A stretch of 64,000 bases of DNA from Lachnospiraceae bacterium. GTDB lineage: Bacteria; Bacillota; Clostridia; Lachnospirales; Lachnospiraceae. The notes under the pieces are model-generated. The model did no database searches, was not told the DNA's origin, and was given only the letters and a program-made list of their open reading frames with translations. Each line of letters begins with the position of its first letter. Positions within the stretch are counted from its first letter, which is position 1. Shown piece after piece: positions 2,076 to 44,568 of this stretch. Both the position numbers and the translations under genes were made by a program. The stretch is from positions 1 to 64,000 of the forward strand of contig JAILEQ010000062.1 in NCBI GenBank assembly GCA_024687305.1, given 5' to 3'.

Positions 2076-3890
2076 ATGACGGGCAGAGCAAAAAATAACA
2101 GCAAAAAAATAGGCGGACTTGAGAGATGGAAGCTTAGCAGCCAGCTTCTGTTTGTCTACAGTCTTGCGGTTTTTCTGCCGCTTGTCATAATCGGCTCATT
2201 TCTTATTACCACCGTCAGCAGCACTCAGAAAAAATATTATTCAGACCTGCTCGCAGGCAGCAACGATGCCGTCAAACAGACGATATACGAGATCACGACG
2301 CAGATATTCACCATTTCTGACAGTATAGTATATAATGACAGCCTGATCGATTTTTTAAACGGCACATACGAAAACAAACAGGAAATGCTCGTTGCGGCAT
2401 CAAGGACCACCATACTCGACAGATATGCCGCCAGATATGCGGGCCTTGACGGTATCTACGTTTACATCGACCGTGAGGATATGGTCGATTACGGACAGTT
2501 TCACAAAGTGACCGACGAGATAAGGGGATCGGACTGGTACAGAAAAGCCTCCGAACAGTACATTCCGTTCTGGATGGCGTACGAATCCGTAGACAGCAGA
2601 AATACCAACAAGACATGGAATCTGTTCATGGTGCGTAAAATGGTGCTTGTGGGAGGCGAGCGAGAAGCAGTCATAATGATAAGGGTCCGCGATTCATATC
2701 TTGCAAGCCGTCTTACAAATTCAAGATATACAACTCTTATAGCCATCGACGATCAGCCTGTGGCGTTCGGAAGCATAAAATCGCTGTACGGCACAAAGCC
2801 TGAGGTTGAGATCGATTATAACGATCCTGCTTTCTCTTATGCGGGTGAAGTCGACTACCACGGAAAGGAATCGTTTGTCAGGGTCGATACACTTCCTCTT
2901 TCCAAATCGGTCAACAAGCTCTATCTGATATCTTACGATACTGAGGCGATCGGCGAGATACGGAGCGGTGTGCGGCTCAGCATTCTTATTCTTCTCGCGG
3001 CGTCGCTGCTCCCTCTTGTCATACTGTCGCTTTTTACACGCCGGTTTACGGTACAGGTAAAGAGCCTCCGTGAAGAGATGGGCAAAGCCAGCCGCGGGGA
3101 ATATCGGGACATGAAGGAAGAACTCTGGGGAAGCGAGGAACTGGCCGAAGCCTTTAAAGACCTGCAAAAGATGGTGCATGATATCCAGAGGATAGAAGCC
3201 GAGCGGTATGAGGCTCAGATAAAGGCGCAGAACATATTGAACGACCAGCAGAAGATCGAGTTCAAGATGCTGTCGAGCCAGATAAATCCGCATTTTCTGT
3301 ACAACACTCTTGAAACGATACGCATGAAGGCACTGGCCGCAGGGGACACGGAGGTTGCAAATGCCACGAGGCTTCTCGGAAAATCCATGCGCTATGTGCT
3401 TGAAAACACAGGTACAAAGGACACCACGCTTCAGAAGGAGCTGGAGCATCTTAAGGTATATCTGCAGATCCAGAAGCTGCGTTTCGGAGACAGGGTTAAT
3501 TATGAGATAACCGTAAGCGAAGGCCTCTGCGCAGAAGATTATAAAATGCTTGGCCTGCTTCTTCAGCCTGTTGCGGAAAACGCCATCGTTCACGGTCTTG
3601 AGGGAAACGAGTCCGGCGGAATGGTAAAGATAGACGTCCATGAATCCGGGGAACAGCTTGTCATAGACATTATCGACAACGGCAGCGGTATTGACGGGGA
3701 GGAGCTTGCGGAATTAAAGGAGAGGCTTAACAGCTATGAAAGCGAGGACCGCACCGACAGCATCGGCCTTTACAACGTAAACCGCAGGATTAAACTGAGT
3801 TACGGAAGCGAGTACGGTGTTAAGATAAGCAGCGAAAAGGGCGTGGGCACAAAGGTTTCCGTGATAATTCCGAAGCTTCCGAAAATTTGA
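2076..3890 (+). CDS. YesM-type sensor histidine kinase
   Basis: N-terminal TM, extracellular sensor region, second TM, SSQINPHFLYNTLETIR phospho-acceptor motif, HATPase NAIVHGLEG and DNGSGI. Confidence 0.9.
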   Translation: MTGRAKNNSKKIGGLERWKLSSQLLFVYSLAVFLPLVIIGSFLITTVSSTQKKYYSDLLAGSNDAVKQTIYEITTQIFTISDSIVYNDSLIDFLNGTYENKQEMLVAASRTTILDRYAARYAGLDGIYVYIDREDMVDYGQFHKVTDEIRGSDWYRKASEQYIPFWMAYESVDSRNTNKTWNLFMVRKMVLVGGEREAVIMIRVRDSYLASRLTNSRYTTLIAIDDQPVAFGSIKSLYGTKPEVEIDYNDPAFSYAGEVDYHGKESFVRVDTLPLSKSVNKLYLISYDTEAIGEIRSGVRLSILILLAASLLPLVILSLFTRRFTVQVKSLREEMGKASRGEYRDMKEELWGSEELAEAFKDLQKMVHDIQRIEAERYEAQIKAQNILNDQQKIEFKMLSSQINPHFLYNTLETIRMKALAAGDTEVANATRLLGKSMRYVLENTGTKDTTLQKELEHLKVYLQIQKLRFGDRVNYEITVSEGLCAEDYKMLGLLLQPVAENAIVHGLEGNESGGMVKIDVHESGEQLVIDIIDNGSGIDGEELAELKERLNSYESEDRTDSIGLYNVNRRIKLSYGSEYGVKISSEKGVGTKVSVIIPKLPKI

Positions 3891-3968
3891 AATGCATGGT
3901 GGAATTTTTAATGCTTTTGATGTCAAATACTTTCGGTTTTTAAAGACAAAAATATAAGATAGACTTTA

Positions 3969-3999
3969 TACCGTGCCATGCACGGTATTTTTATTTTTA
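3969..3999 (+). terminator. Terminator-like hairpin (TACCGTGC-CAT-GCACGGTA + TTTTTATTTTT) directly upstream of the RBS of the surface protein
   Basis: Perfect 8-bp stem, 3-nt loop, T-rich tract; overlaps the 5' leader of the 4014 gene. Confidence 0.6.
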
Positions 4000-4013
4000 T
4001 GGAGGAGGCTTTT

Positions 4014-6269
4014 ATGATGAGAGCGATGAAGAAGGTATTTGCATTTGTCCTTGCGATTGCCATGCTGGTCGGACTTGGACCGGTAAAACAGGCAAAAGCG
4101 GACGATTACACGGCATTCCTTATGTTTTCCGACCGCAACTGGGCATTCGGAAACTGGGATGCAAATCTTCAAAGCGCCACAACGAAGGTTTCGCTTGACG
4201 GCGGAACGTATAAGGTGGTTTTGAATGCCGCGGAGGTCGGCGGAGACGGAACAACTCCCGCGGCCGGCGCAATGGTATTCTGCGTGGACCTGGTTGGGGT
4301 ACAGGCGGCGCTTGACGAAACAGGTGAAACATTCAAATTGACCGATCTTAAGATCCTTGCGGACGGTAAGGAGTTCGCGGCGGATACTTCAAAGATCGTA
4401 ACAGGCGATATCGAAGGTAACGGCAATTTCCGTATCGAGATCTACAACGAGTACGGAAACACCGCGGCAGATCCCGCATTTGATCCGCTTACGCTGGCAT
4501 TTGCGACCACTCTCGAGGTGGAGTTTACGGTTGCAAAGACCATTAAGCTCAGTGATACCGCAAGCATCGCATTCCTTATGTTCTCTGACCGCAACTGGGC
4601 GTTCGGAAACTGGGATTCATCCCTTGAAAGTGCGACGACGATCGTTGACGGCGCGGGAACATACACGGTTACTCTTAACGCCGAAGAAGTGGGCGGAGAC
4701 GGAACAACACCCGCAGCCGGTGCCATGGTATTTAACGTCGACCTTGTTGGCGCCGACGAGCTTATGAAATCCTACGGTCAGAAATATGTATTGTCCGACC
4801 TGAAGGTTTTAGCAGACGGCAAAGAATTCCCCGCAGACGTTTCAAAGATCGTTACGGGAGATATTGAAGATAACGGCAATTTCAGAATAGAGATATACAA
4901 CGAATACGGCGAGAGCGCGGCAGATCCTGCCTTTGATCCCAATGCGCTTTCATTTGCAAAGACGCTTTCTGTAGAGTTCACACTCGGTGTCGAGGCAAAT
5001 TCCGAGCCTTCCACAGCATTCCTTATGTTCACGGACCGCAACTGGGCATTCGGCAACTGGGACGCTTCCCTTGAGAGTGCAACGACCGTTGTCAACGGAA
5101 ACGGAGCATATTCCGTTACACTTAATGCCGCAGAAGTGGGCGGAGACGGAACAACGCCCGCGGCGGGCGCAATGGTATTCTGCGTTGATGTTATCGGTCT
5201 TGCAAAGATGGCTGACATTGAAAACGTGACCGTAAGCGGTCTTAAGATACTTGCGGACGGTGCGGAGGTTCCCTTCGACGGATCGAAGATCGCAGTCGGA
5301 GATCTTGAAAACAACGGAAACCTCCGTATCGAGATATATAACGAATACGGTGCAACCGCAGCGGATCCGGGCTTTGACCCCGTAGCGCTTTCCTTTGCAA
5401 AGACTCTTACCGTGGACTTCACCCTTGACGGTATAGTATATAAGGCTCCCGAACCTCAGGCACCCGCAACTTCATCCGCAGGTCCGGTAGATCTTGACGG
5501 AACATACAATGCATATCTGGGCTTTCAGACCCCCGCATATTCCTTCAGAAACGCATTTGATGACGCAACATACGGACGCGGTATCGTGAGCGATGACGGA
5601 GTTGAATTCTTTACACAGGTTACGGGCTGGGATGCGGATAACAACGCGATCAAGAGAGAAGGTACATTCATCGATGCGGTCATTGCCGGAAACGGAACAT
5701 ACACCGTAAAGGCCGAAGGACTTGATCTTACCGGCGATTTCGATTCACAGGACTACATGAACCTGATATTCCTTTCCACCGATATTCCGAATACCGGTGA
5801 AGTAACGATCAGCGACGTAAGCTTAAAGGTTGACGGAAAGAAAGTGGAGCTTCCCGATGCGGCACAGGAACTCAGCGCGGAGAGCATCGATTACATGAAC
5901 GTTCAGCTTCAGAGCAAATGGAGCAAGACCGGTCTTGCAGAGATCGGAGCATATCATGTTCCTATGACGACCATGGAGATTACATTTACCGTGAGCGGTT
6001 TCAACTACGACAAGGCAGCGGAAGCACCCGAGCCCACAGCTACCCCCGAGCCTACCGCAACTCCCGTTCCCACAGCGACTCCCGTACCCACCGAGGCTCC
6101 GAAGCCCACAGAGGCACCTGCGATAACCGAAGCTCCCGCGGCACAGACTGCAAACGCGGAAACCGCAAGCTCCGGAAACAATATGGGACTCATATTCGGC
6201 ATTTGCGGCGCAGTTGTTGTACTGCTTGCCGGAGCATGCATTTTCTTCGTAGTGCGTAAAAGAAAATGA
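4014..6269 (+). CDS. Secreted, C-terminally membrane-anchored repeat protein; three tandem ~150-aa beta-rich repeats plus a fourth divergent domain; Pro/Thr linker
   Basis: RBS ggaggagg then ATG at 4014 (ORF track opens at 3978). Signal peptide MMRAMKKVFAFVLAIAMLVGLG; repeats start TAFLMFSDRNWAFGNWD at 4110, 4566, 5013; PEPTATPEPTATPVPT linker; C-terminal TM and KRK. Confidence 0.85.
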   Translation: MMRAMKKVFAFVLAIAMLVGLGPVKQAKADDYTAFLMFSDRNWAFGNWDANLQSATTKVSLDGGTYKVVLNAAEVGGDGTTPAAGAMVFCVDLVGVQAALDETGETFKLTDLKILADGKEFAADTSKIVTGDIEGNGNFRIEIYNEYGNTAADPAFDPLTLAFATTLEVEFTVAKTIKLSDTASIAFLMFSDRNWAFGNWDSSLESATTIVDGAGTYTVTLNAEEVGGDGTTPAAGAMVFNVDLVGADELMKSYGQKYVLSDLKVLADGKEFPADVSKIVTGDIEDNGNFRIEIYNEYGESAADPAFDPNALSFAKTLSVEFTLGVEANSEPSTAFLMFTDRNWAFGNWDASLESATTVVNGNGAYSVTLNAAEVGGDGTTPAAGAMVFCVDVIGLAKMADIENVTVSGLKILADGAEVPFDGSKIAVGDLENNGNLRIEIYNEYGATAADPGFDPVALSFAKTLTVDFTLDGIVYKAPEPQAPATSSAGPVDLDGTYNAYLGFQTPAYSFRNAFDDATYGRGIVSDDGVEFFTQVTGWDADNNAIKREGTFIDAVIAGNGTYTVKAEGLDLTGDFDSQDYMNLIFLSTDIPNTGEVTISDVSLKVDGKKVELPDAAQELSAESIDYMNVQLQSKWSKTGLAEIGAYHVPMTTMEITFTVSGFNYDKAAEAPEPTATPEPTATPVPTATPVPTEAPKPTEAPAITEAPAAQTANAETASSGNNMGLIFGICGAVVVLLAGACIFFVVRKRK
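4110..5430 (+). repeat. Three in-frame tandem repeats of 447-456 bp inside the surface-protein gene
   Basis: Repeat starts at 4110, 4566 and 5013; near-identical blocks FGNWD...SATT, EVGGDGTTPAAGAMVF and RIEIYNEYG. Confidence 0.9.
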
Positions 6270-6291
6270 TAAATCTTTTTGACAGAACTTG

Positions 6292-6320
6292 TCCGGACCG
6301 GTGGAATCTGCCGGTCCGGA
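6292..6320 (+). promoter_or_regulatory. Perfect 10-bp inverted repeat (TCCGGACCGG-N9-CCGGTCCGGA) between the surface protein and the permease
   Basis: Read directly; lies 16 nt before the ATG at 6336 and has no T tract. Confidence 0.7.
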
Positions 6321-6335
6321 ACAAAGGAGAGCGAT

Positions 6336-7811
6336 ATGGCAAAAAATATTGAGGTCAGCAACGGGCCGACCGACAAAATATATTATGTGACGCGTATCAG
6401 CCTTCTGTTTGCGTTTGTGCTCGTATTTTTCAGCGAGATCAATCCCGCAAGGATAATGACGCAGATGAACAAGAACATGTCGCTTCTCACGACTGCGCTG
6501 TCTTATGACAGGATAGTGGTGAACATAAAATACGAGATCAACCACAATTACATCTTTAAGAGCGATATTTACAGCCTTATGGCGGCATCGGCGATAATGG
6601 TAGCCGGAATATTGATACTGGCCGTTGCGGCGTGCATTTCTCTCGGAAATTTAAGGATGAAGCGCATATCGAACTATGTGACCCTCGGAGGCAGCGCGGC
6701 GGTCATTTTCGGCGTGTACCGCATGATCGTGACGCACAGGCTTTACAGGGCGATAGACGCCGAAATTTCTGAGATTGTCGGCTTTAAAATGGCTACGGAA
6801 AAGTTACCGACAGCACTTTTCCTTATGCTCGGGTTTGCAATCATCGAGTTTCTTTGCGCGGTAATACTTATGATCGCACAGCCAAGACCGGCACGGGACG
6901 AGAAATGTGAGATGTCGACGCGCTACAAGCTGTTCATAATGGCTCTGCCCTTTCTTGGACTGACATTTATTTTCTCGTACCTACCGCTTTACGGCTGGAG
7001 ATATGCGTTCTTTGATTACAAGGCAGGCCCCGGGACGCTTTCGATGAACGACTTTGTCGGATTTAAGTGGTTTAAGCTTCTTGTGGATAATGCGATGATG
7101 CGCTCCGACATAATCCGCGTCATGAAGAACACTCTTATCATGAGCGGACTCGGTCTTGCCACAAGCTGGGTGGCAATGGCATTCGCCATCTTTCTTTCGG
7201 AGATCAAGAACGGCGTTTTCAGAAGGATAGTACAGGTACTTACGACGATCCCGAACTTCATAAGCTGGGTGCTCGTATACGCCATCGCTTTTGCGATCTT
7301 CTCAAACGAAGGCTTTGTAAACAACATGCTCACAAGGATCACAGGTGTTGTTCACGACCACATCTACCTTACCGACGAATCCATGCTCTATGTGAAGATG
7401 CTCCTCTGGGGAATGTGGAAGGGCGTCGGATGGAGCGCTATCATATACATTGCGGGGATTTCCGGTATCGACCAGCAGCTTTACGAAGCGGCTACCGTGG
7501 ACGGCGCAGGACGTTTCCAGAAAATGTGGCATGTGACTCTTCCGGGACTTATCCCCACATATTCCGTAATGCTTCTTATGGCTGTTGCGGGAATACTCAG
7601 CAACGGTATGGATCAGTATCTTGTGTTCTCGAACGCAAAGACTAAGTCGGCACTTGAGGTGCTTGACCTTTACGTTTACACGCTCGGTATCGGATCGGGC
7701 AAGATCCCGCTTTCCACGGTTATCGGCATGCTTAAGACACTTGTGAGCGTGACGCTTTTGTTCATGGCCAACGGCATATCTAAGCTTGTCCGCGGCGAAA
7801 GCATAATCTGA
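6336..7811 (+). CDS. LplB-like carbohydrate ABC transporter permease with ~190-aa extra N-terminal membrane domain
   Basis: C-terminal half typical (FLGLTFIFSYLPLYGWRYAFFDYKAG..., EAATVDGAGRFQKMWHVTLPGL EAA loop). Start moved from 6279 to the ATG at 6336 after aaaggagagcgat. Confidence 0.88.
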   Translation: MAKNIEVSNGPTDKIYYVTRISLLFAFVLVFFSEINPARIMTQMNKNMSLLTTALSYDRIVVNIKYEINHNYIFKSDIYSLMAASAIMVAGILILAVAACISLGNLRMKRISNYVTLGGSAAVIFGVYRMIVTHRLYRAIDAEISEIVGFKMATEKLPTALFLMLGFAIIEFLCAVILMIAQPRPARDEKCEMSTRYKLFIMALPFLGLTFIFSYLPLYGWRYAFFDYKAGPGTLSMNDFVGFKWFKLLVDNAMMRSDIIRVMKNTLIMSGLGLATSWVAMAFAIFLSEIKNGVFRRIVQVLTTIPNFISWVLVYAIAFAIFSNEGFVNNMLTRITGVVHDHIYLTDESMLYVKMLLWGMWKGVGWSAIIYIAGISGIDQQLYEAATVDGAGRFQKMWHVTLPGLIPTYSVMLLMAVAGILSNGMDQYLVFSNAKTKSALEVLDLYVYTLGIGSGKIPLSTVIGMLKTLVSVTLLFMANGISKLVRGESII

Positions 7812-7826
7812 CGGGGGGGAGACGGT

Positions 7827-8798
7827 ATGGCTTTGACAAAACAGGAAAAACTTGATAAAAAAGCCGAAAGGGCTTATTATCGAAAACACAAACCGCATGT
7901 CAAGCTCACGGGAGCGGACATTGTCTTTTATGTTTTTGACTATCTTGTGTTCGGGTTATTTGCAATTATTTGTTTTTTTCCTTTTTACTACTTGTTTATC
8001 AACACGGTTTCCGACAGTGAGATGGTGGCAAGGGGCGCGGTCAATTTCTACCCGATCGGCTTTACCCTGAAGCATTATAAAGACATGCTCGCCCTGGGAG
8101 ATCTGGGCCGCGCGTTCATAGTCACGATTTCGAGGACAGTCATAGGAACCGCGCTTATGGTCATGGCATCGGCATTTTGCGGTTATCTTATGACCAAGAA
8201 CGAGATGTGGAACAAGAAATTCTGGTACAGATTCCTTGTTATCACAATGTATTTTAACGCAGGTCTGATACCCGGCTACACAAACATGCTGATGCTGGGC
8301 CTCACCGACAATTATCTGGGATATATAATTCCCGCCATAGTACAGCCATTCAACATAATACTGGTAAAGACTTATATCGAGTCCATACCGGCGGAGCTGG
8401 AGGAAAGCGCATTTATCGACGGCGCGAGCTACATGATGATATTCAGGAAGCTGATCCTTCCGCTTTCAAAACCGATTCTTGCGACGATCGCCATATTCGG
8501 CGCGGTGGGACACTGGAATTCCTTTATGGATTCGGTCATTAACATGCAGAACTCGCCCAAACTTCAGACTCTGCAGCATAAGCTGTACATATGGCTCAAT
8601 CAGTCCAGTAATATCGGAGCGGTGATCGACACCGGGCGGTCTGCTTCGGAAATAGAAAAGATAGTAAATCAGTTGAATTCCGGAACTGTTATTAAATACA
8701 CCATCGCGATGGTTACAGTACTTCCCATTCTTTTGGTATATCCGTGGATGCAGAAGTATTTTGAAAAAGGAATCATGCTTGGCGCCGTAAAAGGCTGA
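7827..8798 (+). CDS. YtcP/LplC-like carbohydrate ABC transporter permease
   Basis: EESAFIDGASYMMIFRKLILPLSKPILATI EAA loop, 6 TM, C-terminal GIMLGAVKG. Confidence 0.92.
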   Translation: MALTKQEKLDKKAERAYYRKHKPHVKLTGADIVFYVFDYLVFGLFAIICFFPFYYLFINTVSDSEMVARGAVNFYPIGFTLKHYKDMLALGDLGRAFIVTISRTVIGTALMVMASAFCGYLMTKNEMWNKKFWYRFLVITMYFNAGLIPGYTNMLMLGLTDNYLGYIIPAIVQPFNIILVKTYIESIPAELEESAFIDGASYMMIFRKLILPLSKPILATIAIFGAVGHWNSFMDSVINMQNSPKLQTLQHKLYIWLNQSSNIGAVIDTGRSASEIEKIVNQLNSGTVIKYTIAMVTVLPILLVYPWMQKYFEKGIMLGAVKG

Positions 8799-8813
8799 AA
8801 GAGAGGAGAATTT

Positions 8814-10613
8814 ATGAAGATGCTTAAAAGACTGACAGCGCTTGCGTTAACCGCTGTCATGCTTGTATCAGCGGCAGGATGCTCCGGCGATGCAGAACCC
8901 GTACAGCGCGGTGAATCCGCGGCTTCGGGACCTGCGGCGACCCAGGGTGGAAGCGGCGACACAGGAAAGAGCACGCAGAGCAAGTCGGAACCGATAGAGC
9001 TTGTTGTTTATTCACAGCTTGCAAACTACTCCGGCGAACAGCAGGGATGGTCAGCAAAGCTCCTGCTTGACAAGTTCAACGTAAAGCTCACCATCATTCC
9101 CGATTCGGACGGCGTATTCGATACACGTATGGAAGCCGGAAAGCTGGGCGACATCGTAGTTTTCGGCTCGACGGGAAACGATTACAAGAGAGCGGTGAAG
9201 AACGGTATGCTCCTTGACTGGAACAAATACGATCTTCTCAATAATCACGGACAGTACATAAGAGACAATATGTCGACCGCTCTGCAGTCAAACAGAAATC
9301 TCACGAACACCATCACGGAAGGCGCGAGCGATGCACTGTACGGATTCGGACATTCGGTTGCGCTGTCCGCGGATTCCCACGAGCAGTTCTTCTATACATG
9401 GGATATCCGATGGGATCTTTACAAGTCTCTCGGCTACCCTGTTGTAAAGGGTCTTGACGACCTTGTTACTCTTTTTGAGCAGATGAAGTCCATATGCCCG
9501 ACGGATGAAAACGGCAACCCGACTTATGCGGTATCTCTCTGGCCCGACTGGGACGGAAACATGGTAATGTATGTAAAAGCCTTTACGACTGCATTCTGGG
9601 GCTATGACGAATTCCAGCTGGGCGTGTACGATCCCGATACGGGAATAATGCATGACGCTCTTGAAAAGGACGGACCCTATCTCACTTCGCTCAAGTTCTT
9701 CAATACGCTTTATCAGAAGGGACTTCTTGATCCCAACTCAATGTCACAGACATATACCGAGATGATCGAAAAACTCAAAGTGGGCGGTGTGTTCTTCTCG
9801 ATATTTAACTATGCGGGAAGCCTCGCGTATAACACGGATACGCACATGCAGGACGGCAAGTATATGTATACCATGGTTCCCCAGGATGCGGTGCCTCTCT
9901 GCTACGGCATGAGCCCTTACGGCGGAAACCGTGTATGGACCATCGGAGCAAACACCGAGCATCCCGAACTCTGCATGGATATCATAAACTGGCTCTGCAC
10001 TCCCGACGGATACATGGAAGTGCTTTACGGACCAAAGGATGTCACATGGTATTACGACAGCGACGGACGTGCCTGTCTTACGGATTTCGGGCAGAAGTGT
10101 CTTAACGACAAAGAGAATACGATAATGACAAAGGAAGAAGCCGGAATATACGAAGGCGGAACCTTCCACGACGGAGAACTTCAGATAAACAACACGACAT
10201 GGTCGGGCAACGAGATCAATCCCAACACAACGGGCGATACCTACGACATGACTTACTGGAGAAGCGTCGTTTCAAAGACCGATTATGATGTGCAGCGCGA
10301 CTGGATAGCTTACACCGGTGCAGAAACCGCGGGCGAGTACATGGATAAGCTTAATTACAGAGTAGCTCCGCCCACCGAGTATAACGAAGCGGAGATGGAT
10401 GATGATTTTGAGCTTATATGGAAGCAGGTAACCACATGTATCGTGGATTACAGCTGGAAAGCCATCTATGCGTCGTCCGACGGCGAATTCAATTACCTTG
10501 TACAGCAGATGATGAGTACCGCCAAAGCATACGGATACGATCAGTGCAAACAGTGGTCCTTTGACGAGGCTGCAAAGAGGCATGCTCTTGAGGAAGCATT
10601 CAGAGGAAACTGA
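8814..10613 (+). CDS. Extracellular solute-binding lipoprotein (sugar ABC transporter)
   Basis: Lipobox VSAAGC; ~600 aa solute-binding protein downstream of LplB/YtcP permeases. Confidence 0.9.
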   Translation: MKMLKRLTALALTAVMLVSAAGCSGDAEPVQRGESAASGPAATQGGSGDTGKSTQSKSEPIELVVYSQLANYSGEQQGWSAKLLLDKFNVKLTIIPDSDGVFDTRMEAGKLGDIVVFGSTGNDYKRAVKNGMLLDWNKYDLLNNHGQYIRDNMSTALQSNRNLTNTITEGASDALYGFGHSVALSADSHEQFFYTWDIRWDLYKSLGYPVVKGLDDLVTLFEQMKSICPTDENGNPTYAVSLWPDWDGNMVMYVKAFTTAFWGYDEFQLGVYDPDTGIMHDALEKDGPYLTSLKFFNTLYQKGLLDPNSMSQTYTEMIEKLKVGGVFFSIFNYAGSLAYNTDTHMQDGKYMYTMVPQDAVPLCYGMSPYGGNRVWTIGANTEHPELCMDIINWLCTPDGYMEVLYGPKDVTWYYDSDGRACLTDFGQKCLNDKENTIMTKEEAGIYEGGTFHDGELQINNTTWSGNEINPNTTGDTYDMTYWRSVVSKTDYDVQRDWIAYTGAETAGEYMDKLNYRVAPPTEYNEAEMDDDFELIWKQVTTCIVDYSWKAIYASSDGEFNYLVQQMMSTAKAYGYDQCKQWSFDEAAKRHALEEAFRGN

Positions 10614-10618
10614 TCCTG

Positions 10619-12160
10619 TCAGGTCTTTCCGGAACGGTATTCCACAGGGCTTACGCCGACGTATTTTTTGAATTTTTTGTGGAAGTAATCGACATTGTTG
10701 TAGCCGACTTTTTCCGATATTTCATAAACCTTGAGTTTTCCTTCGGTGAGAAGCTTTATCGCATGATCGATCCTGATGCGGTCGACATAAGTGTTGAAGC
10801 TCTCACCGACGGTTTTTGTAAACACCTTTCCAAGGTATGAGCTGTTGTATCCGAAAAGTGATGCGATGGTCTCGAGCTTAAGATTTGTATTGTAGTTGTG
10901 ATCGATGTAATAGAGCACATCGTCGATGACGCTGTCTCTCGAGAAATTGCCGAGAGAACTCATGAAAAGCTCAAAACAGCGCGAGAAATAAAGGATTATC
11001 TCATAGAGATAATTTGCGGAGTTTATGAAAGCGATTATTTCGGAGTTTGAGGCAAAGGGAAGAGCGGACGGGCTGTAGCGGTGTGTCATGGAATCCTTGA
11101 TCCTTAAGTAAAGATCCGCAAGGAAAAGCTTTACCTCTGAAATGTCCGCATCCGCGTGATACAGGTATTCCTCAACGGAATATAGTACTTCCGCGGTCTT
11201 GCGCCTGTTAAACGTCTGGAGGTAGTCAGTGAGTTCTCTTGTGTAGCGCTCTATATATGACGCTTCCGGCTTTCCGGCGCTGGCGTCGAAGGAGGGCAGA
11301 TCGTCATAGCCCAGCACGTGCTGACCCTGAGAACAGAAAAAACGGCGCTTTAGAAGCTGTTCGGCCTGCTCGTATGAGTCGGGAATATCGCCGAGAGAAT
11401 CAACTATACGGCCGTATGCCACAAAGATACTGTCAAGCGGGCTTCCTTTTTCGGGAACGGATTCATAATGAGCGAGGAACTTTTCAAAGCGTGAGAGTCC
11501 CGGCGTTCCGAGGAGCAGCAGAAGATCGTGGCCTTTGTAGGTGAAGTGCACGGCGGCGCCTGAACGGCTTCCCGCGGCATTAAAAAGCTCGGAAAAGCGG
11601 TATTTTATCTCGCTTCCCGAAATGTTGAAATCTTCGTATGCGACTATTCGGTATCTGTCGGCCGCAAGTCCCAGTTCCTCGGGCGACAGGTGCTTTAAGT
11701 CTATACTGCGGTCCAATATGTCCTGAAGGATCTCTTTCTTGGATCTGCTCTTTAAGAACTGCTCCTTTGACAGTGCGTCTGCTTTGCTGTCGAGCAGTGC
11801 GTTTATCTCATTCACTGCCTGGACAAGCTCGTCCTCGTCGATGGGCTTGGTGAGGTAATGGCGCACATTGTATTTCATGGCGGCCTGGGCATATTTGAAA
11901 TCCGAATAGCCGGAAAGTATTATGAAGTGCCCCTCGAAGCCGTTTTCCGTGAGTTCGCGGATGGCATCTATACCGCCTTTACCGGGCATGCGTATATCCA
12001 TGAGCACAAGATCCGGATTTAATTGTTCTATATCCGAAACCGCATCGGTTCCGTTTCCGGCTTCGCCGCAAAGCTCGTAGCCGAGCGCGTTCCAGTCTAC
12101 GACAAGCTTTATGCCGTCTCTTATGGGCTTTTCGTCATCTGCGATGTAAAGTGATCTCAT
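10619..12160 (-). CDS. YesN-type response regulator, REC + AraC HTH
   Basis: MRSLYIADDEKPIRDGIK...DLVLMDIRMPGKGG...HYLTKPID; C-terminal AraC HTH YISEKVGYNNVDYFHKKFKKYVGVSPVEYR. Confidence 0.92.
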   Translation of the reverse strand: MRSLYIADDEKPIRDGIKLVVDWNALGYELCGEAGNGTDAVSDIEQLNPDLVLMDIRMPGKGGIDAIRELTENGFEGHFIILSGYSDFKYAQAAMKYNVRHYLTKPIDEDELVQAVNEINALLDSKADALSKEQFLKSRSKKEILQDILDRSIDLKHLSPEELGLAADRYRIVAYEDFNISGSEIKYRFSELFNAAGSRSGAAVHFTYKGHDLLLLLGTPGLSRFEKFLAHYESVPEKGSPLDSIFVAYGRIVDSLGDIPDSYEQAEQLLKRRFFCSQGQHVLGYDDLPSFDASAGKPEASYIERYTRELTDYLQTFNRRKTAEVLYSVEEYLYHADADISEVKLFLADLYLRIKDSMTHRYSPSALPFASNSEIIAFINSANYLYEIILYFSRCFELFMSSLGNFSRDSVIDDVLYYIDHNYNTNLKLETIASLFGYNSSYLGKVFTKTVGESFNTYVDRIRIDHAIKLLTEGKLKVYEISEKVGYNNVDYFHKKFKKYVGVSPVEYRSGKT

Positions 12161-12225
12161 GGAAGTATGCCTTTCGCTTTAGTTTAGGTCACGGTTCATT
12201 ATAGCATAATGAAAGAGAGAAATAT

Positions 12226-14088
12226 ATGAGAAAAATAACTATTGTAAGCATTGCCTGCGTTTTCGGGCTGGCCCTGTTTTTACTTGCAGGATGCGGAAAC
12301 ACCGGAAACACCGTAAACAACGGAAATACCGGAAATACCGTAAACACAGGAAATACCGTTAACGCACCTGAGATGATCGAGAACTTCGGGAATGCGGAAA
12401 GCATTGAAAACACAGAAAAAGCTGAAAAAACGGATCTTGCCGATATGACTGCACGCGAACTCTCATACTGCATGGGAAACGGCATAAATCTCGGAAATAC
12501 CTTTGAAGCGGTATCTTCGGCGAAAAATCTTTCCGTAGCGGTATATGAAAGCGCCTGGGGACAGCCGAGGACGACAAAAGCCATGATAGAAGGATACAAA
12601 GCGGCGGGATTCGATACGCTGAGGATACCGGTATCATGGACGAATACAATGGATTACCTTAACGGTGATTTTGAGATCAACGCGGACTATATCGACAGAG
12701 TGGCGGAGATCGTAAACTTTGCCCTTGAAAGCAACATGTTCGTTGTCGTGAACGATCACTGGGATTCGGGCTGGTGGGCGATGTTCGGTTCATCCGATCC
12801 CGAGACCGTAAAGCTTGCGTGGAAGGTCTATGAAGAAATGTGGAAGCAGGTTGCGGGGTATTTTAAGGATTATCCCGATATGCTGATCTTTGAATCCGCA
12901 AACGAGGAGCTTGGAAACGGCCTTAACAACAACAGTGCATGGGCGGATTCGGGGAGTCTGAGCACAGACGATCAGTACAGGCTCACCAACGAGATAAATC
13001 AAAGATTCGTGGAGATAGTGCGAAATTCCGGCGGTAACAATGATAACCGCTTTCTGCTGATCGCGGGATACAACACCGATATCACCGATACATGCGATGA
13101 CCGCTTTAAAATGCCCGATGACAGCGCAGAGGGAAAACTGTTTCTGTCAGTGCATTACTATACCCCATGGAACTATTGCGGTGCAGGCGAAGGCGGAACG
13201 CGGTCGAGATGGGGAATAAGATCCGATTATGAGACGATGGACAAGTATCTTTCCAAGCTTGCCAAATTCTCCGATATGGGATATGGTATAATCATAGGCG
13301 AGTACGGAGCGCTTCCGGTTTACGACAGCACTTCGGGAATGCATGAGACACAGGATAATGCTGTGGAATTCACGGAGTATTTCCTTGACCACTGCGACAT
13401 AAACAACTTTGTTCCGCTCCTCTGGGATACAAACAGCTCTTACAACAAGGTTACATGCACTTTCAGGGATGAAGAAATAGCTTCGGTGTACTCAAAGAGA
13501 AGCTTTGAAAAGGAAAGCGCTTCGGAAGGCGGATATCTTGTAAGCGTCAAAACGCACATGGCGGAAAGTGTTTCAAATGCCTCCGAAATGTGGGAAGGGG
13601 TCGAGACCTATGAAGCCGGGACACCTGTGGCGTGGATCATGTGGAACGGCGGCGCGGGCACCTATTCGGTGGGAGATACCTTTAATCCTGCGGACAATAC
13701 GGCGGGAATAACCGCGGAAAACGTTGTTGTCGACGGCGCGGGCGTATATACCGTGAGCCTTGATTTTCAGGGCGGAAACAACGGTATCACATTCGCGGCG
13801 CTTGCCATAGCGGATGCGGAAATACTGTATCCGGGATGCTATATCGTGATAAACTCCGTCAAAGTTGACGGCGTTCCTGTGGAGCTTACCGCGGTTCCGT
13901 ATACAAGTTCCGATGACGGAAAATGCACCCGTGTAAACCTTGTGAACGAATGGGTGAAGAATGTACCGGACGATGCGCGAACGCTGATGGGACCGCTTTC
14001 AAAGGCATCCGCGGTGATCGTCGATAAGACCGCTTTTGTGGATATACATAACATAACGATAGAGTTCAGGCTTGTAGTCAAAAACTAA
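12226..14088 (+). CDS. GH5 family endo-glycanase (cellulase-like) lipoprotein with C-terminal beta-rich domain
   Basis: Lipobox LFLLAGC; GNGINLGNTFEA, IPVSWTN, FESANEELG (acid/base Glu), IIGEYGALP (nucleophile Glu). Confidence 0.9.
   Translation: MRKITIVSIACVFGLALFLLAGCGNTGNTVNNGNTGNTVNTGNTVNAPEMIENFGNAESIENTEKAEKTDLADMTARELSYCMGNGINLGNTFEAVSSAKNLSVAVYESAWGQPRTTKAMIEGYKAAGFDTLRIPVSWTNTMDYLNGDFEINADYIDRVAEIVNFALESNMFVVVNDHWDSGWWAMFGSSDPETVKLAWKVYEEMWKQVAGYFKDYPDMLIFESANEELGNGLNNNSAWADSGSLSTDDQYRLTNEINQRFVEIVRNSGGNNDNRFLLIAGYNTDITDTCDDRFKMPDDSAEGKLFLSVHYYTPWNYCGAGEGGTRSRWGIRSDYETMDKYLSKLAKFSDMGYGIIIGEYGALPVYDSTSGMHETQDNAVEFTEYFLDHCDINNFVPLLWDTNSSYNKVTCTFRDEEIASVYSKRSFEKESASEGGYLVSVKTHMAESVSNASEMWEGVETYEAGTPVAWIMWNGGAGTYSVGDTFNPADNTAGITAENVVVDGAGVYTVSLDFQGGNNGITFAALAIADAEILYPGCYIVINSVKVDGVPVELTAVPYTSSDDGKCTRVNLVNEWVKNVPDDARTLMGPLSKASAVIVDKTAFVDIHNITIEFRLVVKN
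12295..12363 (+). repeat. 9-bp tandem repeat coding the GNT/VN linker after the lipobox
   Basis: ggaaacacc ggaaacacc gtaaacaac ggaaatacc ggaaatacc gtaaacaca ggaaatacc. Confidence 0.85.
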
Positions 14089-14129
14089 ACGATCCGTTTA
14101 TGACGGAAAGAATCTTGAGAAGTGCGAAA

Positions 14130-15005
14130 ATGAGATACGTTATTGAAAATGATATTTTAAGATGCGAGACAGATACCCATGGGGCTGAGATAAAGAGCCT
14201 TATAAAGAAGGACGGCAACAGGGAGATCATGTGGAGCGGAGATCCGGCTTACTGGAACCGTACCGCTCCGGTGTTGTTTCCTTTCGTTGGGGCGGTTAAG
14301 GAAAAGACCTACAGACATAAAGGAATTGCCTATAATATCGGGCAGCACGGCTTTGCAAGGGATATGGAGTTTGAACTTGTTTCAAAGGAGGACACCGAAG
14401 TGTGGTTTTCGCTTTCGGAAAACGGGGAGACACTTTCAAAGTATCCCTTCCGCTTCAGGCTGCAGATCGGCTACCGTGTTGAAGAGGCTTCTGTAAAGGT
14501 CATGTGGTCGGTCACAAATACCAATGATGAGGAAATGTACTTTTCGATAGGTGCCCATCCTGGCTTTGCGGTGGACAGCTTAAGCGGCAAAAGCTTTGCG
14601 CTTTTCGACATGAACGGAAATCCTGTAAGCAGCGTAAAAAGCAGGATTTTCGGGCAGGGTGGCTGTGCGACCGATAATGAGACCGTGATCGGAACACCGG
14701 GCGGCAAACTCGCGATAACGGAAAGCCTTTTCGATAACGACGCGCTCATAATTGAAAACGGGCAGATAGGGACTGTTAAGCTGCTTGAAGCCGATGGGAC
14801 AGGACTCGTTTCCGTTTCCTTTGATGCACCGCTTGTGGGACTCTGGTCGCCGCCGCATAAGAACGCGCCTTTTGTGTGCATTGAGCCGTGGTACGGAAGA
14901 TGCGACAGGGAGAACTTTGACGGAGAGCTTAAAGACAGGGATTACGAGCAGAGCCTTGAGGCGGGAAAGCGGTTCGAGGCTGAATATACGATAACTGTGG
15001 GCTGA
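14130..15005 (+). CDS. Aldose 1-epimerase family protein
   Basis: MRYVIENDILRCETDTHGAEIKSLIKKDGNREIMWSGDPAYWNRTAPVLFPFVGAVK...GAHPGF...VCIEPWYGRCDRE. ATG at 14130 preferred over 14100. Confidence 0.88.
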   Translation: MRYVIENDILRCETDTHGAEIKSLIKKDGNREIMWSGDPAYWNRTAPVLFPFVGAVKEKTYRHKGIAYNIGQHGFARDMEFELVSKEDTEVWFSLSENGETLSKYPFRFRLQIGYRVEEASVKVMWSVTNTNDEEMYFSIGAHPGFAVDSLSGKSFALFDMNGNPVSSVKSRIFGQGGCATDNETVIGTPGGKLAITESLFDNDALIIENGQIGTVKLLEADGTGLVSVSFDAPLVGLWSPPHKNAPFVCIEPWYGRCDRENFDGELKDRDYEQSLEAGKRFEAEYTITVG

Positions 15006-15154: not shown

Positions 15155-15691
15155 ATGACAAAAAACGTAAGTGTTATTGACGAATCAGGCAGACTTATCG
15201 GAACTACCTACCCGAAACGGGCAAGGGGCTTAGTAAAAAACGGCCGGGCACGTTATGTGTCCTGCGAAACAGAGGATACAATTTGCCTGACGTGTCCGCC
15301 GGATATTTTGGAGGACAAAACAATGACAGAAGAATCTTTAAACACAGTTACACGCACACCTTCCGCAGAATATGCGCTTCAGATGCTCGAAAGCATCGCA
15401 CTTGACACAGAAGCCTTAAAGAGCGCGGTTACGCAGGTTTCTAACGAGACAGACAACGGTATCGCCCACATGATCGAGGCCCGCGAAAAGACTAACAGAG
15501 AGCTTATTGCCTTCTATACCCAGATGTACAACGATTATAAGCCGGCTGCTCCCAACAAGAAGAGCAACACCGTGGAACGCTTTATGGAGATAGCGGACAT
15601 GGTCAAAGGACTTAACAAGGAAGACTATGACAATGATGCCTGGGAAATGCTCATGGATGCGGCAGAGATGCAGCTCACCCGTAACTATTAA
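15155..15691 (+). CDS. Hypothetical protein with N-terminal RRXRR-like motif (TYPKRARGLVKNGRARYV)
   Basis: ATG after aggggga; N-terminal ~45 aa match the pattern VxVxDxxGxxxxTxPxRAxxLxKxGxAxxV. Confidence 0.6.
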   Translation: MTKNVSVIDESGRLIGTTYPKRARGLVKNGRARYVSCETEDTICLTCPPDILEDKTMTEESLNTVTRTPSAEYALQMLESIALDTEALKSAVTQVSNETDNGIAHMIEAREKTNRELIAFYTQMYNDYKPAAPNKKSNTVERFMEIADMVKGLNKEDYDNDAWEMLMDAAEMQLTRNY

Positions 15692-41269: not shown

Positions 41270-42226
41270 ATGAACACAAAACCATGCGATCCCAAAGCAT
41301 CAAAAGAAGTTGTTAAGGTGCTTGAATTTTTGAATTCCATAGAAGGCAAAGGGATACTTGCCGGGCAGCATACACAGACCATCCCGATGGAGGAGACCAC
41401 TCATATCAAGAGTATTACCGGCAAACTCCCCGCGGTATGCGGTTTTGAATTGCTCGGTTATTCACCCAACATAAACAGAGCAGACGCAAGTGAGGAGTGT
41501 CTTAAAGAAGTCGACGAAGTTTACGGAACCGTTGAGTGTGCACTTGAATGGGGAAGAAAAGGCGGTCTGGTAACATATACGTTCCATTGGTTTTCGCCCA
41601 TAGGCGGAAGAGACAAATCTTTCTACGCCGAGCATACCGATTTTGATGCATCCAAGGCCGCAACAAAGGGAACACCCGAGTACGAGGCTATGTTAAGAGA
41701 TCTCGACGTCATTGCAGACATCTTAAAGAAGTTTGAGGCCGAGAACATTCCGATACTTTGGAGACCTTTCCATGAAGCCGAGGGTACGTGGTTCTGGTGG
41801 GGAGCAAAAGGTCCCGTGGTGGCAAGAGATCTTTACAGGATAATGTTTGAATATTTTACCAAAGAAAAAGACATCCACAATCTCGTCTGGGTATGGAACT
41901 GTCCTGTTTCGGAAGCCTACGTGGGTGACGATTACTGCGATATCATTTCAAGAGATCTTTATCCCGAAGCGCATGCACACGGAAGTTTTGTAAACGAGTA
42001 CAAAGTGCTTACCGAATTTGCGCCGACAAAGGGTGTGGCACTTGCGGAGAACGGAGTCCTTCCCGATCCGAAGGCGTTAAAAGCCGACAAGGCAAACTGG
42101 CTTTGGTTCATGACATGGAGTCATGAGTTTTGCCTAACCGAGCAGTATAACAACTTTGACGTTTTAAAAGCGCTTTACGACGATCCCTACACGATCGATT
42201 TCGATACTTTGAAAAAATTGTATTGA
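41270..42226 (+). CDS. GH26 family (beta-mannanase-like), no signal peptide
   Basis: GKGILAGQHTQ; IPILWRPFHEAEGTWFWWG (acid/base); VALAENGVLPDP (nucleophile region). Confidence 0.9.
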   Translation: MNTKPCDPKASKEVVKVLEFLNSIEGKGILAGQHTQTIPMEETTHIKSITGKLPAVCGFELLGYSPNINRADASEECLKEVDEVYGTVECALEWGRKGGLVTYTFHWFSPIGGRDKSFYAEHTDFDASKAATKGTPEYEAMLRDLDVIADILKKFEAENIPILWRPFHEAEGTWFWWGAKGPVVARDLYRIMFEYFTKEKDIHNLVWVWNCPVSEAYVGDDYCDIISRDLYPEAHAHGSFVNEYKVLTEFAPTKGVALAENGVLPDPKALKADKANWLWFMTWSHEFCLTEQYNNFDVLKALYDDPYTIDFDTLKKLY

Positions 42227-42353: not shown

Positions 42354-42737
42354 ATGCTTAAAAAAATTTTAGTGGTGGATGACGACGATGTTTGTCGCGA
42401 TCTGCTGGCGGAAATTTTAGAAGTTGAATATGAGATAGTTCCTGCAAAGAACGGAGCAGAGGCACTCGGACTTCTTTCTTTCCAGTTGGGAAAGGTGGCG
42501 GCTGTGCTTCTTGATATCATGATGCCTCAGATGAACGGCTACGATTTTTTGAAAGTGTTCAACGAGAAGGGCTGGGATAAAAAGGTTCCCGTTATCGTCG
42601 TTACCGCAAGTGATGACGAGGAAACATTTGAAAAGTGCAGGGAACTGGGTATAAAGTTTTTTATCAGAAAACCTTACACATTTAAAGAAGCCTCGGGTGT
42701 TATCGAGAGCGCGATCAAGAGTTTTAAGAAGAAATAA
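42354..42737 (+). CDS. Stand-alone receiver (CheY-like) response regulator
   Basis: KILVVDDDDVCRDLLAE...AVLLDIMMPQMNG...FIRKPYTFKEA; no output domain. Confidence 0.9.
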   Translation: MLKKILVVDDDDVCRDLLAEILEVEYEIVPAKNGAEALGLLSFQLGKVAAVLLDIMMPQMNGYDFLKVFNEKGWDKKVPVIVVTASDDEETFEKCRELGIKFFIRKPYTFKEASGVIESAIKSFKKK

Positions 42738-42744
42738 TCAGACT

Positions 42745-44568
42745 ATGAAAAAGACAAGACTTTTTAAATCGCTGCCGATATTGGCAGCGATTGTGTTTTT
42801 ATTAAACACAACATCAATCGATACTTTTGCGGAAGGCGAACTTACCGGTAAATCAGCCACAGAGATAGTTTCCATGATGGATAAGGGCTGGAACATGGGT
42901 AATACGTTCGATGCAACGGACGGTAAGAAAGACGATGTATATTCCCAGGAAACTTCATGGGGCAATCCGAGAGCCTCAAAAGAGCTCATACAGGGTGTCA
43001 AAGCAGCAGGCTTTAATACGATCCGTATTCCCGTCACCTGGTACAGATTCGAAGATAAGAACAATAATTACGCGATCGACGAAGCGTTTATGGCAAGAGT
43101 TACCGAGATCGTGGATTATGCCATGGATGAAGGTCTCTTTGTCATCATAAATCTTCATCACGAGAAATGGGTGAACGATAAAGACATAGACAAAAACTAT
43201 GTTGAGATCGGCAAGCGTCTTAAAGCCACTTGGAGTCAGATCGCGGATAATTTTGCGGATTACGATCAGCATCTTATATTTGAAGCCATGAATGAGCCCA
43301 GAGCTCAGGGTGCAAATTACGAGTGGACCGGAAATAAGGACTGCTACGCCGCGGTCAACTATTTAAACGATGTTTTTGTAAACACGATAAGAAGTAACGG
43401 CAAGGGACACAACGGCGAAAGAATGCTCATGATCCCGGGATATGCGGCATCGAGCAGTCAGAACGTACTCGATTCGATCGAAATACCGAACGTGGGCGGA
43501 AAGCCTGCAGAGAATATCTGTATTTCGGTACATTGCTATTCACCTTACGAATTTTGCTTAACCGACAAGCAGGTGGCTTTTGACCCGAAGCGATCGGCCG
43601 ATACTTCCGATATAACGCGTCTTATGTCGAGCTGCAAGCGGCTCTTTATCGATAACGGCATTCCGGTCATAATAGGCGAGTGCGGGTGCACCAATTCGGG
43701 CAACAACAACGATGCCCGTCTTGAATGGTTTGCGTTCTTTGGAACTCAGACGAAGGCAAAGGGCATTCCCGCCATCGTATGGGATAACGGAGCCAAGGGA
43801 TCTACCGGAGGTGAATGTCACAGATATATAGACAGAAAGACCGGTGAGGCTGTAGCAGCAGATCTCATAGAAGCTTTCATTAAAGGTGAAAAAGAAGAGG
43901 CTCTTCCGGAAGCCGCAGATGTGATTTATGATTTTGAACCCCACGATGACGGAACCGGGAAGCTTGTTCCGATGGGCCCTTCCGATGCGGGATTTGACCA
44001 GAAACATCTTTCCAATCAGGCAAAGATCAACCATACCGACGGCGCTAAAGTCGGCTTTTCGATGAAGGTCGATACCGAGGTCGAAGCCATGACCGTTTCC
44101 ACGGATATATCGAGATTTGCAGGTAAGAACCTAAAGATCACCGCATGGGTACGTTCCGATGAACCCAATACGGTAACCATGAACGTTTCTTCCGATGAAG
44201 ACGGATTCTTTACCGTCAATACTTCGGATGAGTGGCAGGAGCTCACTCTTTATGTCGGACTCGATGAAGGAAGATCGTTCTTGTCTTTCTCGGCGGATGA
44301 AGAAAAGACTTACTATGTAGACGACATTTCGATAGAGATGGTAGATACGCTCGATGTCATTTCGGACGGCAGCAACCTGCCCGACAAAACGGTCAATGCA
44401 GACCAGACTGAGGAATATGTCGATGAAAACGGCAATCCCGTAACGGTACTCAGCGTTAATATAATCATCATATACATGTTATCGTCCGTAGTCGGTGTTA
44501 CACTTCTCGCCGTGCTTGCGATCCTGATCGGCAAACGGAAAAAAGCAAAGAAAAAGAATAAACGATAA
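42745..44568 (+). CDS. Membrane-anchored GH5 endo-glycanase with CBM-like domain
   Basis: Signal peptide; DKGWNMGNTFDA, IFEAMNEPR, VIIGECGC; C-terminal jelly-roll-like region ending YYVDDISIEM; final TM + KRKKAKKKNKR. ATG 42745. Confidence 0.9.
   Translation: MKKTRLFKSLPILAAIVFLLNTTSIDTFAEGELTGKSATEIVSMMDKGWNMGNTFDATDGKKDDVYSQETSWGNPRASKELIQGVKAAGFNTIRIPVTWYRFEDKNNNYAIDEAFMARVTEIVDYAMDEGLFVIINLHHEKWVNDKDIDKNYVEIGKRLKATWSQIADNFADYDQHLIFEAMNEPRAQGANYEWTGNKDCYAAVNYLNDVFVNTIRSNGKGHNGERMLMIPGYAASSSQNVLDSIEIPNVGGKPAENICISVHCYSPYEFCLTDKQVAFDPKRSADTSDITRLMSSCKRLFIDNGIPVIIGECGCTNSGNNNDARLEWFAFFGTQTKAKGIPAIVWDNGAKGSTGGECHRYIDRKTGEAVAADLIEAFIKGEKEEALPEAADVIYDFEPHDDGTGKLVPMGPSDAGFDQKHLSNQAKINHTDGAKVGFSMKVDTEVEAMTVSTDISRFAGKNLKITAWVRSDEPNTVTMNVSSDEDGFFTVNTSDEWQELTLYVGLDEGRSFLSFSADEEKTYYVDDISIEMVDTLDVISDGSNLPDKTVNADQTEEYVDENGNPVTVLSVNIIIIYMLSSVVGVTLLAVLAILIGKRKKAKKKNKR

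Follow-up and report, generated by a model that had tools for sequence, protein, structure and literature searches.

A putative Gram-positive PUL for xyloglucan or a close beta-glucan, with its own predicted surface glycan-binding protein, in a Lachnospiraceae genome

Background

Xyloglucan clusters have been described in Ruminiclostridium cellulolyticum (Ccel_2451-2458) and Anaerocellum bescii (Athe_2052-2054), and the cited parts of the two reports place extracellular cutting before import in both (PMC4780118, PMC12710961). In the Gram-positive PULs (gpPULs) of Roseburia and Eubacterium rectale and in the mixed-linkage glucan locus of Blautia producta, an enzyme, an ABC transporter and a regulator are clustered (PMC5320581), and gpPULs are presented in the Blautia paper as having no surface glycan-binding proteins and as carrying CBMs on their enzymes instead (PMC10318527).

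The window analysed here is a stretch of 64,000 nucleotides from a Lachnospiraceae bacterium (GenBank assembly GCA_024687305.1, contig JAILEQ010000062.1, positions 1 to 64,000, forward strand), of which positions 2076-15005 hold the locus under study. Judged against the cited parts of the reports, this locus is like the R. cellulolyticum cluster in its two-component system with an AraC-like regulator, two permeases, large solute-binding protein (SBP) and lack of a local ATPase gene (PMC4780118), and has a transporter comparable to the xyloglucan transporter of A. bescii, with an SBP that is a distant homologue of Athe_2052 (PMC12710961). It differs in encoding a membrane-anchored module protein, none being described in the cited parts of either report (PMC4780118, PMC12710961), and in holding no debranching enzyme, whereas both described clusters have cytoplasmic ones; R. 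cellulolyticum, in addition, uses cellulosomal enzymes. With the gpPULs it shares the clustering of enzyme, ABC transporter and regulator, to which it adds a surface protein of its own, composed of modules of the enzyme type and conserved beside the transporter.

The role proposed below for that protein, which would keep xyloglucan on the cell surface close to the importer, is that of SGBP-A/SusD and SGBP-B of the Bacteroides ovatus XyGUL. No sequence relation to these proteins was found, and where the B. ovatus system has an outer-membrane lipoprotein and SusC, the window's locus has a Gram-positive transmembrane (TM) anchor and an ABC importer. Sas20 and other binding proteins that belong to the amylosome of Ruminococcus bromii are likewise non-catalytic Gram-positive surface binding proteins (binding being a prediction in the present case), but they are starch-specific (PMC9112005) and have no known tie to an ABC operon.

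Results

Locus organization and source genome

The source assembly is a MAG of 2.3 Mb in 193 contigs, 86% complete, and among named genomes its closest relatives are Lachnospiraceae MAGs from rumen and gut. ORF calling returned the eight genes with the same order and strands as an earlier sequence-only reading had proposed, and Pfam searches of each gene bore out its family assignments, including the minus-strand YesN, the lipoprotein GH5 and the epimerase. A YesM-type sensor histidine kinase (2076-3890, plus strand; His_kinase, HATPase_c) is followed on the same strand by a membrane-anchored repeat surface protein of 751 aa (4014-6269), an unusually long LplB-type permease of 491 aa (6336-7811; BPD_transp_1 at residues 280-473 only), a YtcP-type permease (7827-8798; BPD_transp_1 and synteny) and a lipoprotein SBP of 599 aa (8814-10613; SBP_bac_8). 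A YesN-type response regulator with receiver and AraC-type HTH (10619-12160; Response_reg, HTH_18) is encoded on the minus strand, and a GH5 lipoprotein (12226-14088; Cellulase) and an aldose 1-epimerase (14100-15005; Aldose_epim, 1.1e-24) follow on the plus strand. GH5, LplB/YtcP/SBP and YesN, the components by which a gpPUL is defined, were all identified here by Pfam. The small protein encoded at 15155-15691 is weakly similar to RRXRR at its N-terminus (E 0.024, below cut-off), and an Rfam search of the window gave no match.

Architecture of the surface protein

The start of the surface protein, previously set at 3978, was replaced by 4014, the most likely start, which is preceded by the RBS GGAGGAGG at 4001-4008. 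The protein comprises a signal peptide (assigned by eye), four modules (R1-R4), a P/T-rich linker, a C-terminal TM helix and an RKRK tail, and from this layout it is predicted to be exported and anchored at the cell surface; the C-terminal TM helix with basic tail was present in 63/63 complete homologues. Cell-wall anchoring of the LPXTG type was rejected, as the motif is absent, TIGR01167 scored 12.8 bits (cut-off 15.9) and LPXTG was found in one of the 63 homologues. Modules R1 (4092-4541; profile match 1.4e-42), R2 (4554-4988; profile match, AlphaFold pLDDT 95.7) and R3 (4998-5435; profile match 5.3e-42) share 67-74% protein identity with one another (BLASTP, E 1e-65 to 1e-73). R4 (5487-6014; AlphaFold pLDDT 95.3), like the others on the plus strand, is a different but related, membrane-proximal module that is kept in all homologues of the protein. 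Searches of Pfam and NCBIfam assigned the surface protein to no family, and the Pfam result excludes SusD homology, in agreement with the earlier statement that it is unrelated to SusD.

A module superfamily shared with GH5 enzymes

The C-terminal ~160 residues of the GH5 aligned with repeats R1-R3 (BLASTP 1e-5, in a tiny database), and the corresponding module (13609-14076, plus strand) was recovered at E 9.4e-50 in a search of the source genome, in which the R1-3-type profile matched the surface protein and the GH5 only. R1-3, R4 and the GH5 tail were linked at 91-94% probability by profile-profile comparison (hhalign), and iterated HMMs seeded from any of the three converged on the same ~145 domains in 65 related loci; on these comparisons the three are assigned to one superfamily. 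The module was found on 18/18 GH5 proteins of the related loci, at the C-terminus of some, at the N-terminus of others and at both ends of still others, and since it can stand before or after the catalytic domain its placement is like that of binding modules. These arrangements, together with the models, indicate a discrete folding unit joined to carbohydrate-active enzymes. The R4 module is rare across the phylum (1 of ~398 other genomes), and a search for the module on plasmids found no match.

R2 and R4, modelled by AlphaFold as isolated modules, consisted mostly of beta strands. Foldseek comparison of both models with the PDB gave no match at E <= 0.001, and weaker hits to pilins and polyhedra were discarded for their low TM-scores. 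No known CBM or Ig family, among those described in Pfam, NCBIfam and PDB sequences, matched the modules, and hits to CHU_C, PKD and InlK_D3 were weak and far below cut-off. The modules are thus like CBM65 and other CBMs of GH5 enzymes in their attachment to a xyloglucanase-type GH5, but unlike them in having no Pfam, PDB-sequence or Foldseek match to any CBM. In repeat-type modules a Trp that lies in a loop, at residue 14 of the R2 model, is conserved in 88%, and a signature R...N-x-[W/Y], at residues 110, 115 and 117, has R and N invariant and an aromatic residue in 100%. The signature recurs every ~150-180 residues, even where the HMMs miss N-terminal parts of surface proteins, and may mark a putative ligand site. 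The N-terminal modules vary from locus to locus. Free exchange of modules between enzymes and surface proteins was not supported, the module tree needing only about three changes (in this tree the row L075_GH5_22 is labelled as an enzyme and is actually a surface protein); in locus L057 the surface modules fall inside the enzyme-type clade.

Conserved neighbourhood of the transporter

The R4 family alone was used as the query in 84,980 species genomes and gave the 65 loci, nearly all of them in Lachnospiraceae. LplB lies directly downstream of the module protein in 45 of the 57 loci with enough downstream sequence, usually continuing as LplB-YtcP-SBP, and a DUF624 (YesL-like) gene is fourth in 31 loci. 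The window's LplB carries an N-terminal extension of ~190 hydrophobic residues (6336-6950), with about four TM helices by eye, which is apparently missing from the eight other LplB-like permeases of the genome (most ORFs 302-346 aa, one 478 aa). As a query the extension was found in 32 of 397 family genomes, and it marks this type of transporter. In the reverse direction, a module protein stood just upstream in 15 of 27 usable loci found through the extension. With only nine LplB-like genes in the genome, adjacency by chance would be expected at less than ~1%. The neighbourhood search suggested by the sequence-only reading, now run, thus placed homologues beside the sugar ABC transporter in 45/57 loci and, in reverse, in 15/27; membership of the repeat protein in the uptake system, which had been proposed from position, is supported by this two-way synteny, by the module held in common with the GH5 and by a conserved promoter box.

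Twelve of the homologues have no sugar transporter nearby; most of the twelve are short and have a single module. In L063 and L067 short R4-type anchored proteins stand beside glycosyltransferase and DegT-type aminotransferase genes, so the module is not confined to loci for sugar uptake. Locus L015 (G034:C1, 6946-16241), from a Butyrivibrio-like genome and the same region as L081, has several separate small single- or double-module anchored proteins around the same transporter in place of one multi-module protein, and the promoter boxes of two of its small module proteins rank with the highest-scoring controls. In L020 (787-4548) and L021, a 1253-aa protein with no Pfam match is encoded directly 5' of the surface protein.

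Promoter box and hairpins

A conserved promoter/operator-like box lies 5' of the surface gene (3912-3941, plus strand; exact ATGTCAAATACTTTCGGTTTTT at 3920-3941). It occurs as a single copy in the window, with none expected from shuffles, and each close orthologous locus has one copy, always ahead of the surface gene. In many other genera the surface gene is followed by a strong terminator and LplB is preceded by a promoter of its own, where the motif TGTATTTtTtaTCAAGTATTTaCGGTAT lies ~18 bases 5' of TATAAT. Scored with a matrix trained on the LplB promoters of those genera, the surface promoter of the window reached 12.1 bits, against a 99th percentile of 11.1 for control intergenic sequences, and surface promoters as a group scored above shuffles (13/32 at p<0.05, Fisher p 2e-10; controls 16/142); the box before the surface gene is weaker than that before LplB. 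YesN is a candidate for binding to the 3912-3941 box. A generic sigma-70 scan was uninformative (17 sites, 21 expected).

A terminator scan located a hairpin with a T-run between the kinase and surface-protein genes (3968-3995, plus strand), ~20 bases before the surface-protein start. A similar hairpin occupies the same place in loci L017 and L020-L023 and is absent in L019, and L011/L022 and L017 have a kinase orthologue of 77-83% identity directly 5' of the surface protein. As the T-run hairpin follows the kinase gene, the latter is probably a separate transcription unit and the surface gene would be the first of the operon; with the predicted promoter just 5' of the hairpin, the transcript of the surface gene would begin at or in it. 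The hairpin may act as the kinase terminator and/or as an mRNA-stabilising 5' stem-loop of the surface-protein mRNA. The gap between the surface gene and LplB is 66 bp, the following gaps being 15 bp, and contains a strong stem-loop without a T-run (6286-6323) at the place where many other genera have true terminators; through this stem-loop the surface protein and the permease may be made in independent amounts.

Enzymes and likely substrate

The best PDB match of the GH5 was the xyloglucanase BoGH5A (3ZMR, E 3.3e-56), and its close PDB relatives include 1EDG, an entry named GH5-4, lichenases and broad endo-/beta-glucanases. The SBP sequence alone had no PDB match; the profile of its family matched best to 9PMY, the xyloglucan SBP Athe_2052 (E 3.3e-11; PMC12710961), a distant relative. 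Among the related loci, a GH29 fucosidase is present in 15, GH31 in 11 (four of six tested being YicI-type alpha-xylosidases, at ~1,200 bits, the cut-off being 606) and a GH74 xyloglucanase in 4, and acetyl or feruloyl-type esterases occur as well. From the alpha-xylosidase, GH74 and fucosidase of the relatives, and from the match of the SBP to 9PMY, xyloglucan is the likely substrate of the locus. The case is weaker in the window's own organism than in its relatives: within the window's own locus no alpha-xylosidase or fucosidase was found, a search of the genome (MAG 86% complete) gave no GH29 hit, and the best GH31 of the genome, which lies outside the locus, scored below the alpha-xylosidase cut-off and is 47-49% identical to the GH31s of two related loci.

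A further beta-mannan/beta-glucan enzyme pair lies 26-29 kb away in the window and consists of a GH26 (41270-42226) and another GH5 (42697-44568). This second GH5 has a signal peptide and a C-terminal TM helix with basic tail, the anchor style of the surface protein.

Discussion

The locus is, with fair probability, a gpPUL for xyloglucan or a close beta-glucan that has its own surface glycan-binding protein, a reading built on gene content, homology and synteny. The YesM/YesN pair would detect the sugar and, if YesN regulates as supposed, activate the promoter before the surface-protein gene. The C-terminal helix would keep the surface protein in the membrane, and the three tandem modules and the membrane-proximal fourth, as putative glycan binders, would tether the polymer beside the cell. 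The lipoprotein GH5, which bears a related module, would then cleave the tethered polymer, the large SBP and LplB/YtcP would import the oligosaccharides with an ATPase presumably encoded elsewhere, and the epimerase would assist in processing the released sugars. The surface protein thus would have a glycan-capture role, probably that of holding a xyloglucan-like fibre at the cell for digestion and import. Points against this reading are that the modules resemble no known CBM family or solved fold, that the window's locus has no alpha-xylosidase or fucosidase, that twelve homologues stand apart from sugar transporters and that the boxes before the surface genes are weaker than those before LplB.

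It is possible, though less probable, that the surface protein holds a different beta-glucan, such as mixed-linkage glucan or glucomannan, in place of xyloglucan. The lichenases and broad endoglucanases among the near relatives of the GH5, the lack of a debranching enzyme in the window's locus, the GH26 and second GH5 26-29 kb away and the variation of the N-terminal modules between loci would all suit such a substrate; on the other side, the transporter is conserved in loci with alpha-xylosidase, GH74 and fucosidase, and the SBP family resembles a xyloglucan SBP. That the surface protein is instead an adhesin or structural envelope protein, merely adjoining the transporter and taking no part in uptake, appears unlikely. 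Its architecture is typical of adhesins, a catalytic domain is lacking, and the twelve short homologues stand away from transporters, some of them beside surface-polysaccharide genes, but the synteny holds both ways in many genera, the module is common to every GH5 of the loci and the promoter box is related to that of the transporter.

Still more improbable is a sensing role, in which the modules would detect the glycan and pass the signal on to the YesM kinase, and not hold the polymer for digestion: in the window, as in several relatives, the kinase gene does lie directly 5' of the surface gene, yet many loci have no adjacent YesM-like gene, there are three to four tandem modules with no sign of a kinase-docking part, and the same module is borne by GH5 enzymes. 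Beyond the preferred reading of the protein as a glycan holder, it is doubtful, if conceivable, that the modules form a new superfamily of carbohydrate binders whose beta-sandwich arrangement is so far unrepresented, and that the surface protein plays the part of SusD in a Gram-positive cell, docking on the conserved extra TM part of LplB and passing captured oligosaccharides directly to the importer.

If binding is confirmed, the surface protein would work like an SGBP. The module is undescribed in Pfam, NCBIfam and the PDB and may have been described earlier in the literature, where the search was partial. If the reading is true, a new family of binding modules would be defined, for which there are two high-confidence models and clear residues to test, and a conserved surface protein that is linked to the transporter and built from the modules of the enzymes would revise the picture of gpPULs for the Lachnospiraceae, which are major fibre degraders of the rumen and colon.
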